Origin: Flavobacteriaceae bacterium
Lineage (GTDB): Bacteria; Bacteroidota; Bacteroidia; Flavobacteriales; Flavobacteriaceae
Reading direction: 5' to 3'
DNA length: 15,686 nucleotides
NCBI GenBank assembly: GCA_002702405.1
Contig: NZZH01000025.1
Location: forward strand, 894 to 16,579
Position numbers and translations under genes: made by a program. Of the stretch, positions 2,459 through 13,570 are shown piece after piece; position 1 is the stretch's first letter; the number at the start of each line of letters is the position of its first letter. The notes under the pieces are model-generated. The model was not told the DNA's origin. It did not search any database and saw only the letters and a program-made list of their open reading frames with translations.

Positions 2459-2869
2459 ATGACCATTTTAAATTATTTCTACATTTTTTTCTTAACATTA
2501 TTAGTAGAAAAATCAGCTCAATCAGAACAATGGATAACCTATAATGAAAATGAAAATTTTTTAATTTCTTATAAATTAAAAAGGTGTAATGATATTAAAA
2601 ATGGATTTGATTTTAATGTTTATTTAATTAAGTTAACTAATAAAACAGGTAAAACTTTAGTTGTTGACTTTGTTTTAGGAGACCCTTTAAATCCTAGACA
2701 AAGAGAAGAGGATAAAGTAATTGTTATTCTTGGTAAAAGAGAATCTAAAGAAGGAACTTGCTGGGGTTATGATAATTTATCACTAACTCATTCCAGTAAT
2801 ATGACTCAAAAAAAGTCAATACCAAAAGAATTTAAATTATCAAGTATAAATTTTGTTGAGATCAAATAG
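2459..2869 (+). CDS. Small secreted protein of unknown function
   Basis: I do not recognise this 136-residue protein. It begins with a hydrophobic segment (about residues 4-16) ending in KSAQSEQ, which looks like a signal peptide cleaved near residue 20-22. The mature part is polar, with two cysteines (43 and 101) that could form a disulphide, and predicted strands such as KTLVVDFVLGD and KVIVILGK that suggest a small beta-rich fold. Its 3' end overlaps the start of the large surface protein by up to 17 nt, so the two are probably cotranscribed and may be translationally coupled. No SD is present before the ATG and no perfect promoter element was found. It could be an accessory of the T9SS substrate, but nothing in its own sequence proves that. 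Confidence 0.7.
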   Translation: MTILNYFYIFFLTLLVEKSAQSEQWITYNENENFLISYKLKRCNDIKNGFDFNVYLIKLTNKTGKTLVVDFVLGDPLNPRQREEDKVIVILGKRESKEGTCWGYDNLSLTHSSNMTQKKSIPKEFKLSSINFVEIK

Positions 2870-5800
2870 TTTAACATTTATTTTTTTATTTCTTGCAAAT
2901 TTTTCTTTTGCACAGACTCTTACTGTTACAGCAACTCTTTCTCCGGCAACATGTAGTGGAACCCTAGTAAGTTTTAATTTAGAATATATACCTACTGCTT
3001 CAGTTGCAACAACTTTTGACTTTAATTCTGGTGATTTACCAGGGGGTTGGGATTCGACGCCATATATAGTTGGCACTCCTTGTGATGCAGAATCAACACC
3101 TCCAGCTAGCTATCAAGATGGGTCCAATTATTTTTGGGCTACAGTATACAATGATGGTAATGCTACTGCTAATAATAATGCTAATCCTAAAGTTAGATAT
3201 GTTGAAACTAATTCCTTAAATGTTTTAAATGGTGGAACTATAAATTTTTTAATACGTTATGGAGCAGATGATCCATATTTAGGATCAGGGTTTGTAAATG
3301 GTCAACCAAGGAATAATTGCGAAGATCCTGATGAAGCAAGGGAACAAGTATATCTTCAGTACTCAATTGATGATGGAGCAACTTGGAATGTAACTCCACC
3401 AGGAGATAATTATAACGCACAACCTTTATTAAATGGTGTTACTTGGACAACTGGAGCTGTAGTTACTGATACATGGGACACTACTGGAGGCTATGCAAAA
3501 CCATGGTATAGATGGTATCCAAATAATATTGAAATACCTAATGCAGCTAAATCGACAAACACAAAATTTAGGTGGTATCAGCCTAAATCATCTAATTATT
3601 ATTATGATAATTGGGGTTTAGATGATGTTACGGTTAGTAGATTTCCCGCAGCTTCTTCTTCATGGACTATTGATTTTGGAGATGGAGAAATCAGACAAAT
3701 AGGTAAAGAAACAGAGTTTGATTGGCAAGGTTTTGGAGGCTCGGGAACAGGGATTTTAAATATAAATGGAGTGCAGTTTTCTACTGGAAATGTTATCAAC
3801 CCTGGAATTGCAAGACAAGTTTTAACTGATTTAATAAACACATCAACAGACATTAGAATTAATGGAAAAGTATCAGCAAGTGTTGGTTTAAATGGTAAAA
3901 TGACAGTGACAGGTTTAAATTCGGAAGCCTTTACTTATTTTGCAGAAGCTCTTGGATTTGGAGATTTTGTTATAATAACAGAGCAAAACCCATTATCTTC
4001 TACATTAAGTTTAACTTACCTTTATCTTCCGTCTAATCAGGATTATTCAAAAACATTGTCCTTAACAACGATTTTATCTGATGGAGAAACTGTTTCAATT
4101 TCTCCTACTATTTTTGTCCCTGCAAGTGATACAACTCCTCCAATAGCTTCTGCACCTGTTAGTTTTACAGCAGATACTGATCCAGGAGATTGTTTTGCAA
4201 CTATAACAGATATAGGTTCTCCCACATTTAGTGACAATTGTTTGATTGGAAATATTACAAATAACAAACCTTTAAATAATCAATATCCTAAAGGAGTAAC
4301 AAGTATTACTTGGTATATTACAGACCATGTATCTAATGTTACAACCGTTACTCAAACGATTATAGTAATTGATAATGAATTTCCTAATTTAACAATTCCT
4401 GCAAATGTTAATTCTAGTAATTGTAGTTTGGCTCTTTTGGCAGCAAATACAGCTGATAATTGTGGGCCCGCTCCAACAATTACAAAAAGTATTCCCGATG
4501 GTTATATTTTCCCCTCGGGTCAAACAGCTGTTATATGGCAAGCAGAAGACTCTTCTAGTAATATTACATCAAAAACACAATTAATAACTATTACAGATAA
4601 TACTCCTCCAACGGCAACTGTAACTCCTATAACACTTGAAACTAATGTTGGCGAATGTTATAAAACTGTTAATCGCAGTATCTTATTGCAATATGCAGCA
4701 GACCCGACAGATAATTGTCAATCATCTATAAATATAACTGATAATATACCTGCTCAATTTAATTTGGGTGTACATTCTGTAACCTATATATTTTCAGATG
4801 ATACAGGAAATCAAACTACCTTAGTTCAGTCAGTTACGATTGTTGATTTATCGGCTCCTGCAATCACACCACCTGCTGATATTAACTCAGATTCTTGTGT
4901 TATTGTTCTAGGAGATCCAACAATAAATGATAATTGCACTTATACAATTTCTAATAATGCACCTGCTACTTTTCCTGCTGGAAATACTGTTGTAACATGG
5001 ACCGTTAGTGATTCATCAGGAAATATATCTACAGCCACTCAAAATATTTTCTTTAATGACAATACTGATCCTACCATTTTAATTGACTCTAATCCTATAG
5101 TTGGTGTTGACCCTGGATTATGCACTGCTTCTGTTGTTGATTTAGGAACGGAAATCACAAATGATGATTGTAGTGTTACCTCAGTTACAAATGATGCTCC
5201 TGATACTTTTCAGATTGGCGTAACAACTGTAACTTGGACTGTTGAAGACTCTTCTGGTAATATTGCAACTGCAACACAAACAGTTACTGTTGTTGATGAT
5301 GAGAAACCTGTTGCCAAAGGAAGAGATATAGTTATTGAGCTAGATGCTAACGGAATAGCTACTGTAACAAAAGATCAAATAAATAATGGGAGTTCTGACA
5401 ACTGTTTATTAGAATCTTTTGGAATTAGTAAGTCATTTAATAATCGAACTCAAAACCCTGAAAATCCGAACAACCCTAATAATCCTGTTAATTTATCTGC
5501 TAAAAGATATTCTAAAGCCTTTATGAAAAGTGGAGCACTTACTTTTAGTTGTAATGATGTTGGTGTAAAACAAGTTAAATTATTAGCAACTGATAGTTCA
5601 GGAAATACCGATGAAGTTACAGTTAACGTTACTATTTTAGCATCTTCTTTTTGTTCTACTTCAACTACAAGCACTCCTTCGGCAGATATAGATTCAGATG
5701 GTGATGGGTTTTTAGATAGTAATGATGCATTTCCAAATGATCCTTTGGAATGGATAGATACTGATGGAGATAATATTGGAAATAATTCTGATACTGATGA

Positions 5801-6977
5801 TGATAATGATGGTTTTTCAGATGATATAGAAATTATTAATAATAGTGATCCTTTAGATGATAATAGTATTCCATTAGATATAGATGGAGATGGTCTTATA
5901 AATCCCGAAGATTTAGATGATGATGGAGATGGATTTTCAGATATTATTGAAGATTTAGTTGGCACATCACCTACAGACAATAATGATTTTCCTTTAGATA
6001 CAGATAATGATGGAATAATTAATTTTTATGATGATGACGATGATAATGATGGTCAATTAGATGAGTATGAAAATATATGTGGTTCAGATCCACTTAATTT
6101 CATGTCTTTTTCAACTGATACGGATTTAGATGGATTACCAGATTGTATTGATTTAGATGATGATAATGATGGTTTTTCAGATGAGGAAGAAATTTTTGAA
6201 GGGACATTACCAAAGGATAAAAAGAGCTTTCCACAAGATTATGATGGAGATGGAATTGCTGGAAAAAGAGATAATTGTTTTAATGTTTTTAACCCTGATC
6301 AATTGGATACTGATCAGGATACTTTTGGAGACGCATGTGATAATTGTATAAATGTTTTTAACCCCGATCAAAGAGATTATGATCTAGATTTAATTGGTAA
6401 TGCCTGTGATGATGATGATGATAATGATGGCCAATCCGATTTAGTGGAAATTGAATGTAAGTCAGATCCGCTTGATGAAAATTCAATGAGTCCTGATTAT
6501 GATAAAGATGGATTACCAGATTGTATTGATTTAGATGATGATAATGATACTCAAAGCGATATAGCTGAAATAAATTGTGGGTCAAATCCATTAGATGAAA
6601 ATTCAAAAAGCCCTGATTATGATGGAGATGGAATTTTAGATTGCGAGGACAATGATAAGGATAATGATGGAATTTTAGATTTGATTGATTTAAATCCATA
6701 TGATTATGATGAAATACTAATTTCAGAGTTTATATCTCCAAATGGAGATGGGATTAATGATAATTGGGAAATTATTCCAATTGAAAGATTTCCAAATAAT
6801 GAGGTTTGGATTTATTCTAGAGCAGGAAACCTTCTCTTAAATAAAAAACAATATAATAATGATTGGAATGGTTATTATAAAGGTAATCCGGCTCCTGAAT
6901 CAAGTTATTTATATATGATTGATTTAAATGGAGACAAAGTTATTGATTATAAAGGATGGTTTTATTTAACAAAGTAA
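2853..6977 (+). CDS. Modular cell-surface protein: Reelin-like, HYR and TSP3 repeats, T9SS type-B sorting domain
   Basis: This 1374-residue protein is built from modules. Residues 1-20 are a signal peptide ending FANFSFA-type (cut before Q21). Residues about 50-265 contain an Asp-box (YSIDDGATW, 170-178) and YYYDNWGLDDV (249-259), resembling Reelin-type repeats. Residues about 427-815 hold five HYR repeats with the recurring pattern DNC, then V.W...D.SGN, then VTVVD. A sixth, degenerate one (816-930) contains an Asn/Pro-rich insert (PENPNNPNNP). Residues 945-1284 are Asp-rich thrombospondin-3-like calcium-binding repeats (DGDG, DDDNDGFSD, DNCxNVFNPDQ). Residues 1289-1374 are the type-B T9SS C-terminal domain (SEFISPNGDGINDNW to the final FYLTK). 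The start must be TTG (2853 or 2856): a stop lies just upstream in frame and no early ATG exists. It is inferred to be an exported adhesin or gliding-associated protein, paired with the following PorP/SprF gene. Confidence 0.93.
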   Translation: MLRSNSLTFIFLFLANFSFAQTLTVTATLSPATCSGTLVSFNLEYIPTASVATTFDFNSGDLPGGWDSTPYIVGTPCDAESTPPASYQDGSNYFWATVYNDGNATANNNANPKVRYVETNSLNVLNGGTINFLIRYGADDPYLGSGFVNGQPRNNCEDPDEAREQVYLQYSIDDGATWNVTPPGDNYNAQPLLNGVTWTTGAVVTDTWDTTGGYAKPWYRWYPNNIEIPNAAKSTNTKFRWYQPKSSNYYYDNWGLDDVTVSRFPAASSSWTIDFGDGEIRQIGKETEFDWQGFGGSGTGILNINGVQFSTGNVINPGIARQVLTDLINTSTDIRINGKVSASVGLNGKMTVTGLNSEAFTYFAEALGFGDFVIITEQNPLSSTLSLTYLYLPSNQDYSKTLSLTTILSDGETVSISPTIFVPASDTTPPIASAPVSFTADTDPGDCFATITDIGSPTFSDNCLIGNITNNKPLNNQYPKGVTSITWYITDHVSNVTTVTQTIIVIDNEFPNLTIPANVNSSNCSLALLAANTADNCGPAPTITKSIPDGYIFPSGQTAVIWQAEDSSSNITSKTQLITITDNTPPTATVTPITLETNVGECYKTVNRSILLQYAADPTDNCQSSINITDNIPAQFNLGVHSVTYIFSDDTGNQTTLVQSVTIVDLSAPAITPPADINSDSCVIVLGDPTINDNCTYTISNNAPATFPAGNTVVTWTVSDSSGNISTATQNIFFNDNTDPTILIDSNPIVGVDPGLCTASVVDLGTEITNDDCSVTSVTNDAPDTFQIGVTTVTWTVEDSSGNIATATQTVTVVDDEKPVAKGRDIVIELDANGIATVTKDQINNGSSDNCLLESFGISKSFNNRTQNPENPNNPNNPVNLSAKRYSKAFMKSGALTFSCNDVGVKQVKLLATDSSGNTDEVTVNVTILASSFCSTSTTSTPSADIDSDGDGFLDSNDAFPNDPLEWIDTDGDNIGNNSDTDDDNDGFSDDIEIINNSDPLDDNSIPLDIDGDGLINPEDLDDDGDGFSDIIEDLVGTSPTDNNDFPLDTDNDGIINFYDDDDDNDGQLDEYENICGSDPLNFMSFSTDTDLDGLPDCIDLDDDNDGFSDEEEIFEGTLPKDKKSFPQDYDGDGIAGKRDNCFNVFNPDQLDTDQDTFGDACDNCINVFNPDQRDYDLDLIGNACDDDDDNDGQSDLVEIECKSDPLDENSMSPDYDKDGLPDCIDLDDDNDTQSDIAEINCGSNPLDENSKSPDYDGDGILDCEDNDKDNDGILDLIDLNPYDYDEILISEFISPNGDGINDNWEIIPIERFPNNEVWIYSRAGNLLLNKKQYNNDWNGYYKGNPAPESSYLYMIDLNGDKVIDYKGWFYLTK
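4131..5642 (+). repeat. Tandem HYR (hyalin-type) domain array within the surface protein
   Basis: Five units of about 71-83 residues plus one divergent sixth unit follow each other. Each carries a Cys early in the unit, a (D/N)NC or DDC motif in the middle, a strand like TTVTWTVEDSSGN, and a closing strand like TQTVTVVDD followed by PP or xP of the next unit. The HYR domain is an immunoglobulin-like beta fold used as a spacer in adhesive proteins. DNA identity between units is low, so this is an old protein-level repeat, not a recent duplication. Confidence 0.85.
6129..6170 (+). repeat. 42-bp perfect direct repeat, copy 1
   Basis: This 42-bp stretch, encoding DGLPDCIDLDDDND, is identical at every base to 6507-6548. 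The offset is 378 bp (126 codons), equal to one 40- plus one 86-residue repeat unit. The identity suggests recent duplication or gene conversion within the repeat region. Confidence 0.9.
6507..6548 (+). repeat. 42-bp perfect direct repeat, copy 2
   Basis: Second copy of the repeat at 6129-6170, in the same reading frame and encoding the same 14 residues. Just after it the motif changes (NDT instead of NDG), so identity ends abruptly. Confidence 0.9.
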
Positions 6978-6980
6978 TTA

Positions 6981-7916
6981 ATGAATAGACTTTTTAAAAT
7001 CATAATTATTTTTCTGCCTATGTTGATTTACTCTCAACAGCAATCATATTTGACTTTATATAGATATCAAATGAATATTATTAATCCAGCTTATGCTGGA
7101 ACAGAAGGAAAAGATGTTTTATCGTTAACATCAAGAAATCAGTGGATGAATATTGATAATGCTCCAAGAACTTTAGTTATGTCTTTTTCATCTGAAAGAA
7201 AGAAAAATGTTGGACTAGGAATTTCTGTTGAGTCTGATAAAGTTTTCATCGAAAAGCAGACTTTTATGTATATAGACTTTTCTTATAAATTACAAATTAA
7301 TGAAACTACTAAACTTTTTCTTGGACTTAAAGCAGGCGGAAATTTTTATAAAGCAGATACTGAAGAATTAATTTCTACAAGCAGTAATTTAGATCCTTCT
7401 CAAATTAGTTTAAGTCGTATTAATCCAAATTTTGGAGCAGGTTTATATTTAAAGGGAGAAAAGTTATGGTTATCACTTTCAATTCCGAGATTTTTTAAGG
7501 TAAAAAGAGATAAGGATATGATGATAAGTGCTAAAGAAAGAATTCATAATTATTTAGGGATAGGCTATTCCTTTAAAATATCAAAGGATTTTGAAATGAA
7601 ACCTGGAATCATGTTTAGAAAAGTAAAAGGATTACCTCTAAATACTGAAATAAATAATTTTTTTGCATATAAAAATAAATATGAGATTGGAGCTTCTTTA
7701 GTTTCTAATTCATCACTTTCAATTATGTCATTAATTAATATTTCAAAGGGCATAGATTTGGGATATGCTTATCAAACACCTAGTGGAAATAAACTTTCAG
7801 GATTAAATCTTAAAACTCATGAAGTAGTTTTAAGAATTAAATTTGAGAATTTAGTTAAGGAATCTGATTCAGAAATTGAAGAGGATAATCAAGAAAGCAA
7901 AAAAGAATCTAACTAA
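6981..7916 (+). CDS. PorP/SprF-family T9SS outer-membrane protein
   Basis: This 311-residue protein has a signal peptide (MNRLFKIIIIFLPMLIYSQQ). The family's N-terminal signature follows: LYRYQMNIINPAYAGTEG at about residues 26-43, then SRNQWMNIDNAPRTLVMSFSS. The remainder alternates amphipathic strands with glycine-rich turns (NVGLGIS, FGAGLYL, IGASLVS), as expected of an outer-membrane beta barrel, and ends in a charged tail. PorP/SprF proteins act with the type IX secretion machinery. In Flavobacterium johnsoniae, SprF lies next to the adhesin SprB and is needed for its export. Here the gene starts 3 bp after the stop of a type-B T9SS substrate, so the pair is very likely one operon and this is the dedicated partner. 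No SD is present. Confidence 0.92.
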   Translation: MNRLFKIIIIFLPMLIYSQQQSYLTLYRYQMNIINPAYAGTEGKDVLSLTSRNQWMNIDNAPRTLVMSFSSERKKNVGLGISVESDKVFIEKQTFMYIDFSYKLQINETTKLFLGLKAGGNFYKADTEELISTSSNLDPSQISLSRINPNFGAGLYLKGEKLWLSLSIPRFFKVKRDKDMMISAKERIHNYLGIGYSFKISKDFEMKPGIMFRKVKGLPLNTEINNFFAYKNKYEIGASLVSNSSLSIMSLINISKGIDLGYAYQTPSGNKLSGLNLKTHEVVLRIKFENLVKESDSEIEEDNQESKKESN

Positions 7917-9117: not shown

Positions 9118-9954
9118 ATGAAAAGTGATAATTTAATTATTATGGCTGCTGGAGCTTCTAGCAGAATGAAAAGATCTTTAAACAGGGAAATAGTTGATAG
9201 CAATGTATATGAAATAGCGAATAATTCTCATAAAAGTTTAATTCCTTTGGGGAGACACGGTAGACCTTTAATTTATTATCTTATTAAGAATGCGATTAAA
9301 GCTAATTATAGTAATATATATATAATTACTGGTGAAGACAATAATGATTTTAAGCAATTTATAATTTCACAATCATTCAAGAATATTAATATTCAATTTG
9401 TAAAACAATATATACCTAAAGGAAGAGAAAAGCCTCTTGGAACATCAGATGCCGTTGTTCAAGCATTAGATCAATTTCCAGAGCTTAAAACAAACATTTT
9501 TACTGTTTGCAATGGGGATAATCTTTATTCAGTAAATACTCTTAATTTACTTAAAGAAAAAAGGAATAATCCTCATGCATTAATAAGTTATAGTTGGTCA
9601 GCTTTTAATTATGAAAAAGAAAGAATTTCAAAATTTGCTGTAATTTCAATGGATTCTAACAATAATTTAAAAGATATCGTAGAAAAGCCAGATATGGATA
9701 TTGTTGATAATTACAAAGATAAGTCAGGAGAGATAGGTTTAAGCATGAATATTTTTAGTTTTACAGGCTCCATGATTTATTCATATGTAAAAAATTGCCC
9801 TATAAATGAGAAAAGAAACGAGAAGGAATTGCCAGAAGCGGTTAGGGTTTTAATTCGAGAAAATCCAAATTCAATGTTTTGTTATAAAGTATTTGAACAT
9901 CTTCCAGATCTTACAAATTCATCAGATATTGAGAATTTCAAGAATATGGAATAA
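9118..9954 (+). CDS. Sugar-nucleotidyltransferase-like protein
   Basis: The 278-residue protein has the nucleotidyltransferase (NTP_transferase) Rossmann-type fold. MAAGASSRMK (residues 9-18) is the nucleotide-binding loop. Lys39 in SHKSLIPLG follows after an insert. GTSDAV (108-113) and the metal-binding Asp of VCNGDN (130-135) come next, then DIVEKPD (186-192), typical of enzymes that join an NTP to a sugar phosphate. The substrate cannot be read from the sequence; the insert between RMK and the second Lys sets it apart from classical RmlA or GalU. I recall similar stand-alone proteins in other Flavobacteriia. A lipoprotein serine hydrolase follows after 10 bp, so the two probably form an operon, perhaps linked to cell-envelope or wall metabolism (inference). 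Confidence 0.82.
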   Translation: MKSDNLIIMAAGASSRMKRSLNREIVDSNVYEIANNSHKSLIPLGRHGRPLIYYLIKNAIKANYSNIYIITGEDNNDFKQFIISQSFKNINIQFVKQYIPKGREKPLGTSDAVVQALDQFPELKTNIFTVCNGDNLYSVNTLNLLKEKRNNPHALISYSWSAFNYEKERISKFAVISMDSNNNLKDIVEKPDMDIVDNYKDKSGEIGLSMNIFSFTGSMIYSYVKNCPINEKRNEKELPEAVRVLIRENPNSMFCYKVFEHLPDLTNSSDIENFKNME

Positions 9955-9964
9955 TTTTATTAGA

Positions 9965-11146
9965 GTGAAAAGAATTTTAGTTCTTTTAATAATAATTTTT
10001 GGATGTAAAAAATCAGAGAATCCTTTTGATTTCATTTTAAATTCTAAAATACCTGAGATAAGAAAAATAAAAAATAATTTATCTAATCATGAGGTTCAAA
10101 TTTTATATTCGTCAATACAAAGAGATTCTCTAGGAAAACCATTATTTGAGGAGTTTAGTTATAATCTTGATAAAAACTATTATTATTATCCAGCAAGTAC
10201 TGTTAAACTTCCAATTTCAATTTTAGCAATTCAAAAAATAAATTATTTGAAAGACAAAGGGTTTGAGATTTCTATAAACACCCCTTTTATTGTTATTGAT
10301 TCAAAGAATGATTTAATTAGTATTAATAATGACTCTAATTACGAAAACGAAGTTTTATCAGTTGCTAATTGTATTAAAAAAATATTTTTATATAGTGATA
10401 ATGATTGTTATAATTATCTTTTTGATTTTTTAGGAAAGGATGAAATTAATCATCAATTACAGAAAAAAGGCTTAAAGAATACTCAAATTTATCATAAATT
10501 TTTAAAGAATTCTGATAATTTAAATTCATGGAGATTTTTATTTATTTCTAATCGAGATACTATTTATAATCAAAACTCAATAAAAAGTATTTTAAACAAT
10601 TCAAATAAAAATTTAAAGTCAGTTATAAAAGGAAATAAGTTTATTTATAATAATCAATTAATAAAGGGTCCCTTTGATTTTAATTATAAAAATCAAATTT
10701 CAATAAGAGATTTGAATGATATTTTAAAAAGAATAATTTTTCCTGAAAATTTTCAAAAGAATGAACGTTTTGATTTACAAGAAAGTGATTATAACTTTTT
10801 AAAATATTGGATGAGTAGGACTTCTATTGAGGATAACAATATCAATATGATAAATAAAAATAAATATTGGGATAGCTATTCCAAATTTTTCATATATGGA
10901 GATAAAAAAGGTGAAATGAATGATGCTATTAGAATATCAAATAAAGTGGGAATGGCTTATGGAACATTAACAGATGTTGCATATGTAAGAGATAAAATTA
11001 ATAACATTGAATTTATGCTTACTGCTACAATTTTAGTTAATGATAATGATACTTTTAATGATGACATTTATGAATATGATTCAAAAGGAATCCCTTTTCT
11101 ATCTGCATTGGGTAGGCAAGTATTAAAATATGAAAGAAAAAATTAA
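9965..11146 (+). CDS. Lipoprotein serine hydrolase, class A beta-lactamase-like
   Basis: The chosen GTG start gives 393 residues and a clean lipoprotein signal peptide, VKRILVLLIIIFGCKK, with the lipidated Cys at residue 14. The three penicillin-recognising motifs appear in order: YYPASTVKLP with Ser78 and Lys81 (SxxK), YSDND with Ser144-Asn146 (SDN), and SNKVGMAYG with Lys327-Gly329 (KxG). This marks a serine hydrolase of the beta-lactamase / PBP-like superfamily. The class A-like spacing is stretched by inserts, and the mature protein, about 380 residues, is longer than typical class A enzymes (about 260-270). Whether it cleaves beta-lactams, peptidoglycan or another ester or amide is open. 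A longer frame from TTG at 9893 would overlap the upstream gene and bury the signal peptide, so I rejected that start. It ends convergently on the oxygenase. Confidence 0.83.
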   Translation: MKRILVLLIIIFGCKKSENPFDFILNSKIPEIRKIKNNLSNHEVQILYSSIQRDSLGKPLFEEFSYNLDKNYYYYPASTVKLPISILAIQKINYLKDKGFEISINTPFIVIDSKNDLISINNDSNYENEVLSVANCIKKIFLYSDNDCYNYLFDFLGKDEINHQLQKKGLKNTQIYHKFLKNSDNLNSWRFLFISNRDTIYNQNSIKSILNNSNKNLKSVIKGNKFIYNNQLIKGPFDFNYKNQISIRDLNDILKRIIFPENFQKNERFDLQESDYNFLKYWMSRTSIEDNNINMINKNKYWDSYSKFFIYGDKKGEMNDAIRISNKVGMAYGTLTDVAYVRDKINNIEFMLTATILVNDNDTFNDDIYEYDSKGIPFLSALGRQVLKYERKN

Positions 11147-12090
11147 CTTTTAATTAAACCAATCTCTATTAATCTTTCATTTAGAAATTCTCCAGCATTA
11201 ATATCATCATAGTATTTAGGATTGGTTTGATTTATGCAAGAATATAGACAATTAAGAGGCATTTCATTAACAGGATGCATAAAAAAAGGGATTGAAAATC
11301 TTGATTTATCCCACATTTTTTTTGGTGGATTTATAACTCGATGTATAGTTGATTTTAATTTATTATTTGTTAACCTTGATAACATATCACCAATATTAAT
11401 CATAAGCTCATCAGTTTCTGCAATCGCATCTATCCATGAACCATCATTAGTTTTTAATTGAAGACCTTTACCTTGAGCTCCCATAAGTAAAGTTATTAGA
11501 TTAATATCTCCATGAGCAGCTGCCCTTTCAGCATTTTTAGGCTTAATTTTTATAGGGGGATAGTGGATAGCTCTTAAAATAGAATTTCCATTTAGAATAT
11601 ATTTATCAAAATAAAATTCATTTAAATTTAAGTAAATTGCCAATGCTCTTAAAATTTCTCTCCCAGTTTTTTCAAGCATTTTATATGAAATCATTCCAAT
11701 TTCATTAAACATAGGAATTTCATGAACCTTAATATTAGAAGGATATTTTTTTACAGATATATTTTTATTTACATCTTGTCCAAAATGCCAAAATTCTTTT
11801 AAATCTCCAACTTTTCTTCCTTTAGCATGTTCTTTTCCAAAAGAGGTATAGCCTCTTTGACCATTTAGTCCTTTAATTTCGTATTTTAATTTTATTGCAA
11901 GGGGTAAATTGAAAAATGAATTAACTTCTGTATAAAGATTATTAATCAAACTTTTATCTAAAAAGTGTCCTTTTAGAGAAACAAATCCAATTTTTTCAAA
12001 TGCTAGACCTATATCTTTAATGAATTTATTTTTTTCCTTTTTAGATCCTGAGATAAAATTTTTCAGGTTAACATTTGGAACTTTAATCAT
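11143..12090 (-). CDS. 2-oxoglutarate/Fe(II) dioxygenase, isopenicillin N synthase family
   Basis: The 315-residue protein shows the N-terminal DIOX_N-like part (DIGLAFEKIGFVSLKGH, about residues 26-42) and the C-terminal double-stranded beta helix. Iron ligands are His193 and Asp195 (AAHGDINLITLL) and His250 (KSTIHRV). Arg264 and Ser266 (RFSIPFF) form the RxS pair that binds 2-oxoglutarate. IHYPP (175-179) and GDLKEFWHFGQ (95-105) are typical of the family. The substrate cannot be predicted; relatives hydroxylate or desaturate small molecules. It starts 12 nt after the base of a terminator-like hairpin and lies behind a possible leader ORF, so expression may be controlled by attenuation. Its stop shares TTAA with that of the convergent serine hydrolase gene. 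Confidence 0.9.
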   Translation of the reverse strand: MIKVPNVNLKNFISGSKKEKNKFIKDIGLAFEKIGFVSLKGHFLDKSLINNLYTEVNSFFNLPLAIKLKYEIKGLNGQRGYTSFGKEHAKGRKVGDLKEFWHFGQDVNKNISVKKYPSNIKVHEIPMFNEIGMISYKMLEKTGREILRALAIYLNLNEFYFDKYILNGNSILRAIHYPPIKIKPKNAERAAAHGDINLITLLMGAQGKGLQLKTNDGSWIDAIAETDELMINIGDMLSRLTNNKLKSTIHRVINPPKKMWDKSRFSIPFFMHPVNEMPLNCLYSCINQTNPKYYDDINAGEFLNERLIEIGLIKS

Positions 12091-12102
12091 GATATTTTAA
12101 TT

Positions 12103-12130
12103 AAAAAGCGAGCCCATCGACTCGCTTTTT
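12103..12130 (-). terminator. Perfect intrinsic-terminator hairpin upstream of the oxygenase
   Basis: AAAAAGCGAG (12103-12112), an 8-nt spacer and CTCGCTTTTT (12121-12130) form a perfect 10-bp inverted repeat with a GC-containing core and an A5/T5 base. Read on the minus strand it is a GCGAG/CTCGC stem followed by five U. The symmetry would let it work in either direction. It is by far the best terminator in this AT-rich window. It lies between the 20-codon ORF and the oxygenase ATG at 12090, which argues for a regulated (attenuator) terminator, or for the end of a separate small RNA. Confidence 0.7.
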
Positions 12131-12135
12131 ATGAT

Positions 12136-12173
12136 AGATAAGGATTTACAGAAGAGCACTTATCTGCCTCTTC
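12136..12173 (-). ncRNA. Possible H-type pseudoknot in the oxygenase leader
   Basis: On the minus strand, GAAGAG (12173-12168) can pair with CTCTTC (12156-12151). AGATAAG (12165-12159), in the loop between them, can pair with CTTATCT (12142-12136). Both stems are perfect (6 and 7 bp). The connecting loops are 2, 2 and 8 nt, which suits a classical H-type pseudoknot: a short loop across the deep groove and a longer A/U-containing loop across the shallow groove. The stop codon of the 20-codon ORF lies in the last loop, so a translating ribosome would open both stems. The folding is drawn by eye, with no energy calculation. Confidence 0.45.
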
Positions 12174-12208
12174 AGTTTATAATTCCTCAAATAAATTTTA
12201 TAAAACAT
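12146..12208 (-). CDS. Candidate 20-residue leader peptide with a strong SD
   Basis: The minus strand reads ATG at 12208, 20 codons (MFYKIYLRNYKLKRQISALL) and TAA at 12148-12146. An extended SD complementary to the 3' end of 16S rRNA lies at the right distance. The peptide is basic, with three Tyr and three Lys, and has no run of one amino acid as in classical amino-acid attenuators. Its second half overlaps both strands of the first stem of the possible pseudoknot. The terminator hairpin follows after about 15 nt, and then the oxygenase gene. I infer a leader peptide that couples translation to readthrough; alternatively it is a short ORF inside a free-standing small RNA. No homolog is known to me. 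Confidence 0.45.
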   Translation of the reverse strand: MFYKIYLRNYKLKRQISALL

Positions 12209-12212
12209 AAGA

Positions 12213-12224
12213 CACCTCCTCTCT
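12213..12224 (-). promoter_or_regulatory. Extended Shine-Dalgarno sequence of the leader ORF
   Basis: The minus-strand sequence AGAGAGGAGGTG can pair over 12 consecutive bases (one G:U) with the usual 16S rRNA tail CACCUCCUUUCU, and is followed by TCTT and ATG. No other gene in the window has a comparable SD. Bacteroidota normally ignore SD sequences because bS21, bS18 and bS6 cover the anti-SD on the 30S subunit. Confidence 0.6.
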
Positions 12225-12241
12225 ATATTAGTTATACAATA

Positions 12242-12255
12242 TCTGTTGTCACAGA
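12242..12255. promoter_or_regulatory. Inverted repeat upstream of the leader ORF
   Basis: TCTGT, TGTC, ACAGA form a perfect 5-bp inverted repeat with a 4-base centre, about 34 bp before the leader ATG. It could be a dimeric-repressor site or a small hairpin at the 5' end of the leader RNA. No TAnnTTTG promoter element is visible between here and the antiporter gene. Confidence 0.3.
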
Positions 12256-12298
12256 CCTAAATACTCAATAGGTAAATTTAAAAAAATGTTTTATTATT

Positions 12299-13570
12299 TT
12301 ATTCTTTAATAAGCTTTTTTATTGTTAAACCTTGGCCTAAAATTGTAAACAGAACGACCGCATAAGTTAAAAAGAGAATCAACGATTTACCTTCTCCAAT
12401 TGAATCAGGTAAATTTAGAGCTAAAGCAACACTCAATCCACCTCTTAAACCACCCCAAGTAATTATTAAGGCAGTATTTTTTTCAAAAGATTTTTTAATT
12501 GAAAGAAGTAAAATTGGAAGTTTTACTCCAACAAATCTTGATAAAACACAAATTATTATAATTAAAATTGAAATAAATAAATATGAAATATCAAATGATT
12601 CAAAAATCAAAATAATTTCTAAACCAATTAAGATAAAGAGTATTGCATTTAAAGTTTCATCTAATAGGTGCCAAAATTTATATACATAATCCCCCATTGC
12701 TTTTTGAAGGCCTTCTTTTTCATGATCTGAATCGATATTTTGGTTAAGGAATAATCCTAAAATAACTACAGCTATCGGTCCTGAAAGATGATATTTAAAG
12801 GCAATTAAAGAAACAACTAATACTAGCGATAATGTAATTAAAACTTCAAGTTCAACATATTCATTTTCAATATATTTAAGCAATTTTAGTCCGAAGTAGC
12901 CAAAAAAGACTCCTAGAATAATACCCCCTAAAACTTCTTTTACAAATAATGTTCCAACACTTATTGCAGTAACATTTTCAAATCCCTCTAGTTTAACATT
13001 TAGAAGAGTTAAAAATATAACTACTCCAATACCATCATTAAATAAGGATTCACCTGCAATTACAGTTTTAGTTTTAGATGAAAGGTTCATGTTTTTTAAA
13101 AGGGCAAGTACAGCTATAGGATCAGTTGGAGCAATTAGTGCTCCAAAGAGAAGACAATCTACAAAACTTAAACCAATTTCATTTAGTCCAAAAACAGGTT
13201 GTTGAACTACCCAGAATAAACCACTTCCAACAACAAAGGTTGAAAAAAAGACTCCAAAAGTTGCTAGAAGCAGAATAGTTAATTTATCCTCAAGAAGATC
13301 TTGAAGGTTAATGCTTATAGCTCCTGCAAATAAAAGGAAAGGTAACATAACATTAATTAGTACAAGGCTAAAGTCAAATTCCTTAGTTAATTGTGAGACA
13401 GTTTCAAATACATTAGGAAACACAATTCCAACAGCTGTAACAAGTATTGAAAGAATAAGAGCAAGAATCATAAGACCAATAGTCTGAGGCATTTTGAGTA
13501 ATCTTAAGTTTATAATTGAAAATACCGATGCTAAAGAAAGTAGAATTGTAGTTAATTCAAGAATGTCCAT
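12299..13570 (-). CDS. Cation/proton antiporter, CPA1 (NhaP-like) family
   Basis: The 423-residue protein is almost entirely hydrophobic, with about 11-13 membrane segments, and belongs to the CPA1 sodium(potassium)/proton exchangers of the inner membrane. Family motifs are present: LFGALIAPTDPIAVLALLK (about residues 141-159), the ion-binding Asn-Asp pair at 178-179 in GESLFNDGIGVVIF, GPIAVVILGLFLNQ (264-277), and WGGLRGGLSVALAL (372-385). The C-terminus stops just after the last helix, without the cytoplasmic regulatory tail of some relatives. It would export Na+ (or K+) using the proton gradient, fitting a marine lifestyle. Only 33 bp separate it from ribE on the same strand, so readthrough from ribE is likely. 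Transcription leaving it runs toward the oxygenase leader. Confidence 0.93.
   Translation of the reverse strand: MDILELTTILLSLASVFSIINLRLLKMPQTIGLMILALILSILVTAVGIVFPNVFETVSQLTKEFDFSLVLINVMLPFLLFAGAISINLQDLLEDKLTILLLATFGVFFSTFVVGSGLFWVVQQPVFGLNEIGLSFVDCLLFGALIAPTDPIAVLALLKNMNLSSKTKTVIAGESLFNDGIGVVIFLTLLNVKLEGFENVTAISVGTLFVKEVLGGIILGVFFGYFGLKLLKYIENEYVELEVLITLSLVLVVSLIAFKYHLSGPIAVVILGLFLNQNIDSDHEKEGLQKAMGDYVYKFWHLLDETLNAILFILIGLEIILIFESFDISYLFISILIIIICVLSRFVGVKLPILLLSIKKSFEKNTALIITWGGLRGGLSVALALNLPDSIGEGKSLILFLTYAVVLFTILGQGLTIKKLIKE

Follow-up and report, generated by a model that had tools for sequence, protein, structure and literature searches.

A candidate self-closing mini-mRNA of Flavobacteriales with an extended Shine–Dalgarno sequence and an internal copy of the 16S rRNA tail

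What is the role of a 20-codon reading frame that carries a strong Shine–Dalgarno sequence (SD) and its own terminator hairpin, immediately ahead of an oxygenase gene? The question is raised by a 15,686-nt stretch of a Flavobacteriaceae contig, called the window here in its entirety. The first-pass annotation proposed an attenuation leader, in which translation of the short ORF decides whether polymerase passes through the hairpin into the oxygenase gene. We favor a different reading, with a probability of roughly 55%: the RNA may be a self-closing mini-mRNA that is opened by ribosomes with an exposed anti-SD, such as those lacking bS21, and would serve as their sensor or decoy.

The SD, the 20-codon ORF, the hairpin and the spacing to the oxygenase ATG were all found on the minus strand where the annotation had placed them. 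The intergenic stretch is bordered by the end of a Na+/H+ exchanger gene at 12299 and by the oxygenase ATG at 12090. Flavobacterial promoters have a −7 consensus of TAnnTTTG, and a −7-like box, TAAATTTA (12273..12280), matches TAnnTTYR, placing the probable transcript start near 12268. A 5′ hairpin, TCTGTGACAACAGA (12242..12255), has its stem around GACA in the 71-sequence alignment described below. It is followed by the SD core GAGAGGAGGTG (12223-12213), which belongs to the extended SD TAGAGAGGAGGTGT (12212..12225), and by the ORF MFYKIYLRNYKLKRQISALL (12146..12208, ATG to TAA). An ORF segment at 12165..12177 could base-pair with GGUGUCUUAUGUUU (12216-12203) at the start site, while an ORF-end hairpin, GAAGAG...CTCTTC (12151..12173), appears in single-sequence folds as the rival of that helix. 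After the stop codon lies TCCTTATCTA (12135..12144), which resembles the 16S tail and is able to pair with the SD. The terminator hairpin (12103..12130) has a perfect 10-bp stem and an 8-nt loop, TCGATGGG, with symmetric A/T ends, and the oxygenase ATG stands 12 nt past it. All of these features are on the minus strand.

The 180 nt from 12265 to 12086 fold at −46.5 kcal/mol (z −4.14), a value equaled by none of 200 shuffles. A simple terminator scan did not list the hairpin of the element, whose T run sits within the stem; it found three others, fewer than in shuffles. The Rfam search that the annotation had proposed returned no family: Rfam 15 gave no match in the window, and at E-values up to 10 all 15 matches to 12310-12060 fell below the cut-off, the best at E 0.37. 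No earlier description of the RNA was recognized in the open-licence literature, mostly at listing level, and its novelty is thus relative to Rfam 15 and that literature. The adjoining 2OG-Fe(II) oxygenase gene (11143..12090, minus; Pfam DIOX_N and 2OG-FeII_Oxy) is a neighbor and not a conserved part of the unit. It converges with a β-lactamase-family gene (plus, 9893-11146), the two overlapping by four bases (11143-11146), and an oxygenase homologue in another genome (L025 in G022, about 1501-2436) contains one in-frame TAA. Elsewhere in the window, the stretch 2853-7916 holds a gene for a large repeat-rich surface protein and, after it, a gene that we take to resemble PorP/SprF of type IX secretion.

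The element recurs in relatives. A 206-base BLAST query found matches in 26 of 397 Flavobacteriaceae genomes; the element is carried by 13 of these 26, from eight genera, with one match per genome. Two genomes of the same genus have the stretch at 91% identity, ahead of the same oxygenase; in seven further genera of the family it is found at 70–81% DNA identity, which places the recurrence beyond chance. The remaining BLAST-matched genomes had short matches to terminators, to an rpsU start (L053), or by chance. A pattern scan using one genome per species yielded 79 element loci, titled Flavobacteriaceae, Flavobacteriales, Crocinitomicaceae, Cryomorphaceae, Ca. Arcticimaribacter or Bacteroidetes. 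Their titles describe metagenome-assembled genomes, uncultured isolates or a single-cell genome, with no cultivated strain recognized among them, and isolate names suggest a seawater origin for many. The scan pattern contained TGTGACAACR and GARAGGAGGTGTC, so the presence of both in these 79 loci follows from how the loci were selected; among the 13 BLAST-found carriers both are present in 12, and the remaining locus (L043) differs in each. The 93 loci collected comprise 74 distinct elements after removal of 13 duplicates, two with N and four that were cut off. Our alignment (A5) holds 71 of the 74, leaving out L073, whose ATG reads AGG, as well as L108 and L123, which are close to L080 and L130, respectively.

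Broader searches were also performed. Of the 397 Flavobacteriaceae genomes, 13 matched a looser pattern; the element is present in 12 of these, and the other match (L197) is due to chance. With the pattern reversed, no Flavobacteriaceae genome was among the matches listed. Viral carriage was considered and rejected, as the unit was present in none of nine viral_contigs matches to the looser pattern. Genomes matched by a covariance model (R1) numbered 13 of 395 in the order and 2 of 296 in the phylum. Only the match in G001 was strong; 12 other loci (L139-L150) are terminators of other genes. This search applied strict filters, scored few candidates per genome (seven or nine among the matches listed) and gave rough E-values, so its negatives cannot prove absence elsewhere. 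Two loci each were found in two assemblies, DQCR01 (L108, L111) and CAJWGK01 (L118, L133), which we take for mixed bins.

Gene neighborhoods were compared across 81 loci (the window, L043 and L059-L137). In 36 of them the next gene is a same-strand oxygenase, often within 40 nt of the element; 20 have a different gene on the same strand there, and 19 have a convergent one. Four pieces end before a next gene and two have none near. The preceding gene is a same-strand Na+/H+ exchanger in 60, riboflavin synthase in seven, a divergent gene in eight and another same-strand gene in three, with none in the piece in the last three. The seven riboflavin synthase loci lack the exchanger and keep the element, and in eight loci the element sits between a divergent gene before it and a convergent gene after it. 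Other identified neighbors are a glycosyltransferase family 2, a divergent Na+/Ca2+ exchanger and an electron transfer flavoprotein alpha. The Na+/Ca2+ exchanger lies beside the element in L075 and other Crocinitomicaceae loci, while in Flavobacteriaceae the element comes after the Na+/H+ exchanger; the exchanger neighbors in both families are either a coincidence or a link to ion transport.

These neighborhoods bear directly on attenuation. The annotation saw no promoter element between hairpin and oxygenase, and its observation extends to all 36 tandem loci, window included: none has a TAnnTTYG box in that gap, so the oxygenase may still be expressed by read-through there. The tandem arrangement, seen in 36 of 81 loci, speaks for attenuation. 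Against it, the unit stands without an oxygenase next in at least 39 of the 81, namely the 20 with another same-strand gene and the 19 with a convergent one. Conservation is not linked to the oxygenase either, as the oxygenase is present in 42 of 60 relatives and the full-length element in only two (four element matches in all). A conserved antiterminator was not found among 26 representatives (mean z +0.14, three below −2, against shuffles preserving single-base content only), and the terminator has a probability near 1 in nearly all folds. Leaders of the trp and erm type also combine an SD, a short ORF, competing helices and a terminator, but the element lacks their conserved downstream gene and antiterminator. 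Given the varied neighbors and the many oxygenases without an element, attenuation of the oxygenase is not supported as a conserved function, and we rank it the least probable of the readings weighed here. A TAnnTTYR box lies upstream of every one of the 74 elements, and 69 of these boxes fall within five adjacent positions (a raw count, taken without a shuffled control). With the changing neighbors, this promoter-like box and the terminator make the autonomy of the element, as an RNA gene of ~165 nt (near 12268 to 12103), well supported, box and terminator being judged by sequence.

The RNA structure drawn for the 71 sequences consists of the 5′ hairpin, a helix between the SD and the post-stop TCCTTATCTA, a start-site helix and the terminator. 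It is paired in 97.0% of 2400 cells, compared with 42–54% for slid partners; the start-site helix had been proposed by RNAalifold on this same alignment, and the structure is to that extent chosen there. By part, 99.7% of cells are paired in the 5′ hairpin, 99.5% in the terminator, 96.7% and 93.0% in the two start-site helices, and 95.4% in the SD helix, where conservation of the SD letters is partly built in by the search pattern. Two-sided change was counted in 13 pairs versus 6.5 in shuffles: six in the terminator, three in the SD helix, two in the 5′ hairpin, two in the inner start-site helix and none in the outer. The pseudoknot that the annotation drew across the ORF end, AGATAAG (12165-12159) with CTTATCT (12142-12136), is not part of this conserved structure. 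In the window the pairing is feasible, but of 74 elements only the window's own contains AGATAAG, which is missing from the two relatives of its genus (91% identity here). In the alignment of 71 sequences, the SD has TCCTTATCTA as its partner.

The helices that would hide the start site are conserved, though weakest in the window itself, which forms four of six and four of five pairs; most relatives form them in full. Their SD side is held by the match to rRNA. On the ORF side, G-R-Y-R-C-C is retained in 58 of 71 sequences, so that pairing with GGUGUC is preserved. At column 66, a U faces an A in column 100 in eight sequences from three groups (the window's genus, the L036 group and L131), and the 10 other sequences with U66 have G (four), C (five) or U (one) there. 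The competing ORF-end hairpin was judged by folds of individual sequences and not on the fixed alignment: its mean z is −2.4, with 20 of 26 representatives below −1.5 and the window at −2.26. On the fixed alignment, 61.6% of its cells are paired, and two of five measures are not above shuffles.

Folding at different lengths suggests an order of events. In RNA cut before the right arm of the ORF-end hairpin, the start-site helix has a mean probability of 0.85 over the 71 sequences. Across 26 representatives, the start site is unpaired at 0.21 versus 0.39 with shuffled ORFs, and in 13 of them no more than three of 60 shuffles are as low, while the window shows 0.34 versus 0.36; these shuffles preserved single-base content only. 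At full length, the ORF-end hairpin beats the start-site helix by a median of 4.6 kcal/mol at equilibrium (24 sequences), and mean pairing is 0.65 for the ORF-end hairpin, 0.37 for the SD/post-stop helix and 0.08 for the start-site helix. The cost of the forced SD helix is inflated for the Crocinitomicaceae loci L075, L090 and L107, where its columns are out of register. The SD/post-stop duplex has a mean z of −1.39 in the 26 representatives, four of them positive and the window at −0.88, again relative to shuffles of single-base content. The post-stop copy begins 1–8 nt past the stop in 63 of 74 elements, those that match simply.

The annotation's unit of SD, short ORF and terminator is conserved. 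The ORF has 20 codons in 46 elements, 21 in 25, 25 in one (L064) and seven in one (L131), so that 71 of 74 have 20–21, and an ATG is present in 73. The stops are TAA in 50, TAG in 18 and TGA in five, and the two other frames are open over 19 codons in five and none of 73. This raises the possibility that the element encodes a functional peptide of 20 residues, produced by exposed-anti-SD ribosomes, the folds only regulating its synthesis. Over 30 independent pairs, pN/pS is 0.69 for codons 2–10 and 0.51 for the rest, values that leave room for a working peptide, and Q-[VIA]-P recurs in the peptides of many families. However, the peptides diverge strongly between families, and the V/I/A-P codons also supply bases for the pairing to the start site. 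The fixed translated length is better preserved than the product, and a peptide gene is unlikely, while a peptide is the main alternative to the sensing or sequestering of subunits as the output.

In the window, the extended SD complements the 16S 3′ tail ACACCTCCTTTCTA, with a single G:U among the 14 pairs. The end of the 16S gene was found in 11 of 27 genomes, two of which (G323 and G1025) are apparently one assembly, and it reads GGAACACCTCCTTTCTAGAG in these; over a length of 14 nt, the TAGAAAGGAGGTGT of the element is exactly complementary to it. In another search the 16S end was found in none of 22 genomes, the window's genus included, and the SD of that genus, GAGAGGAGG, predicts either a G:U pair or an altered 16S tail. 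The longest exact SD match is 14 nt in 51 elements, 12 in 18, nine in four and less than eight in one. Nine or more consecutive pairs, as in rpsU-type control, are therefore present in 73 of 74 and 12–14 in 69, and the SD of the element is as strong as that of rpsU. In Bacteroidia, according to PMC9976891, bS21, bS18 and bS6 hold the 16S tail, and rpsU, with 9–13 pairs to that tail, is better translated by ribosomes lacking bS21. The paper presents rpsU as the one gene with a strong SD that Flavobacteriales typically have, reports a screen of the genes of 200 Flavobacteriales from which the authors suggest that SD-dependent control is limited to rpsU, and describes F. johnsoniae strains mutated in or depleted of bS21.

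The comparison with rpsU shows both likeness and difference. Both have an extended SD with 9–14 pairs to the 16S tail and a short transcript of their own, and both occur in the same bacterial order (PMC9976891); the start-site letters of rpsU in L053 are nearly identical to those of the element. A search of the 13 carriers for GARAGGAGGT-N2-9-ATG returned 29 sites, 12 of them in the element, 11 at rpsU (10 genomes) and six others, compared with 12 sites in a reversed control. Unlike rpsU, the element does not code for bS21: its frames have 20–21 codons of loosely kept sequence, and rpsU is located elsewhere in all 13 carriers. The element also has an rRNA-tail copy after its stop and a terminator, and its dependence on bS21 would be by analogy. 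At full length, its SD is unpaired at 0.27, versus 0.38–0.73 in 10 rpsU leaders. The rpsU copies of the window's genus (G001, G002; L155, L159, L164) have an ATG without an SD, unlike 10 of the 13 carriers, and rpsU of G077 has a weakened SD. Because rpsU lacks an SD in these two relatives, the bS21 link is uncertain in the window's own genus.

An autonomous small transcript could also be a base-pairing RNA that acts on other mRNAs through invariant loops, the ORF governing its stability. The promoter-like box and terminator fit such an RNA at the level of sequence, as does the terminator loop CGATGG, found in 72 of 73 elements examined. However, the 5′ loop letters were part of the search pattern, and unrelated terminators in Flavobacteriales (L140, L144) have the CGATGG loop as well; we consider this reading quite improbable. 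Many terminators of the order (L047, L048, L052, L057, L140, L144) are shaped AAAAAGCGAGCC-N4-GGCTCGCTTTTT. SgrS is a dual-function small RNA with a tiny ORF. The same holds for yfr6/Downstream-peptide (PMC2864571). The element shares with both its autonomy as a small RNA and a short ORF that is apparently translated, but it differs in a start site that matches the whole rRNA tail and is mirrored by an internal anti-SD, and in having no known target.

In the favored reading of a self-closing mini-mRNA, the nascent RNA would shut its own start site by pairing the start codon with codons about 11–16. Once the RNA is completed, the ORF-end hairpin would take over and the SD would pair with the internal rRNA-tail copy. 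By extension from the rpsU system (PMC9976891), ordinary Bacteroidia ribosomes would sequester the 16S tail and disregard SDs. The internal helices would yield only to ribosomes whose anti-SD is exposed, for instance those without bS21, which would then translate the ORF, and a ribosome terminating 1–8 nt before the post-stop copy would cover it, so that the SD stays free. The element could in this way act as a decoy or reporter of ribosome composition. We infer both the bS21 link and the output; least certain is that the element would serve to sense or capture 30S subunits of this kind, its output being neither the peptide nor expression of the gene that follows.

Taken as a whole, the element may represent a new RNA family of mostly pelagic Flavobacteriales. 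As an autonomous mini-mRNA it would sense or trap exposed-anti-SD ribosomes through competition among SD, tail copy and rRNA tail, and it would be a second SD-controlled gene after rpsU. We hold this fuller claim tentatively, at somewhat under an even chance. If true, specialized ribosomes with an exposed anti-SD would gain a second client beside rpsU, and the built-in rRNA-tail copy would be a natural reporter of ribosome composition. A strong-SD gene in several families contrasts with the restriction of SD control to rpsU suggested in PMC9976891. A mode of control hitherto described for a single gene may have a second user in this element.
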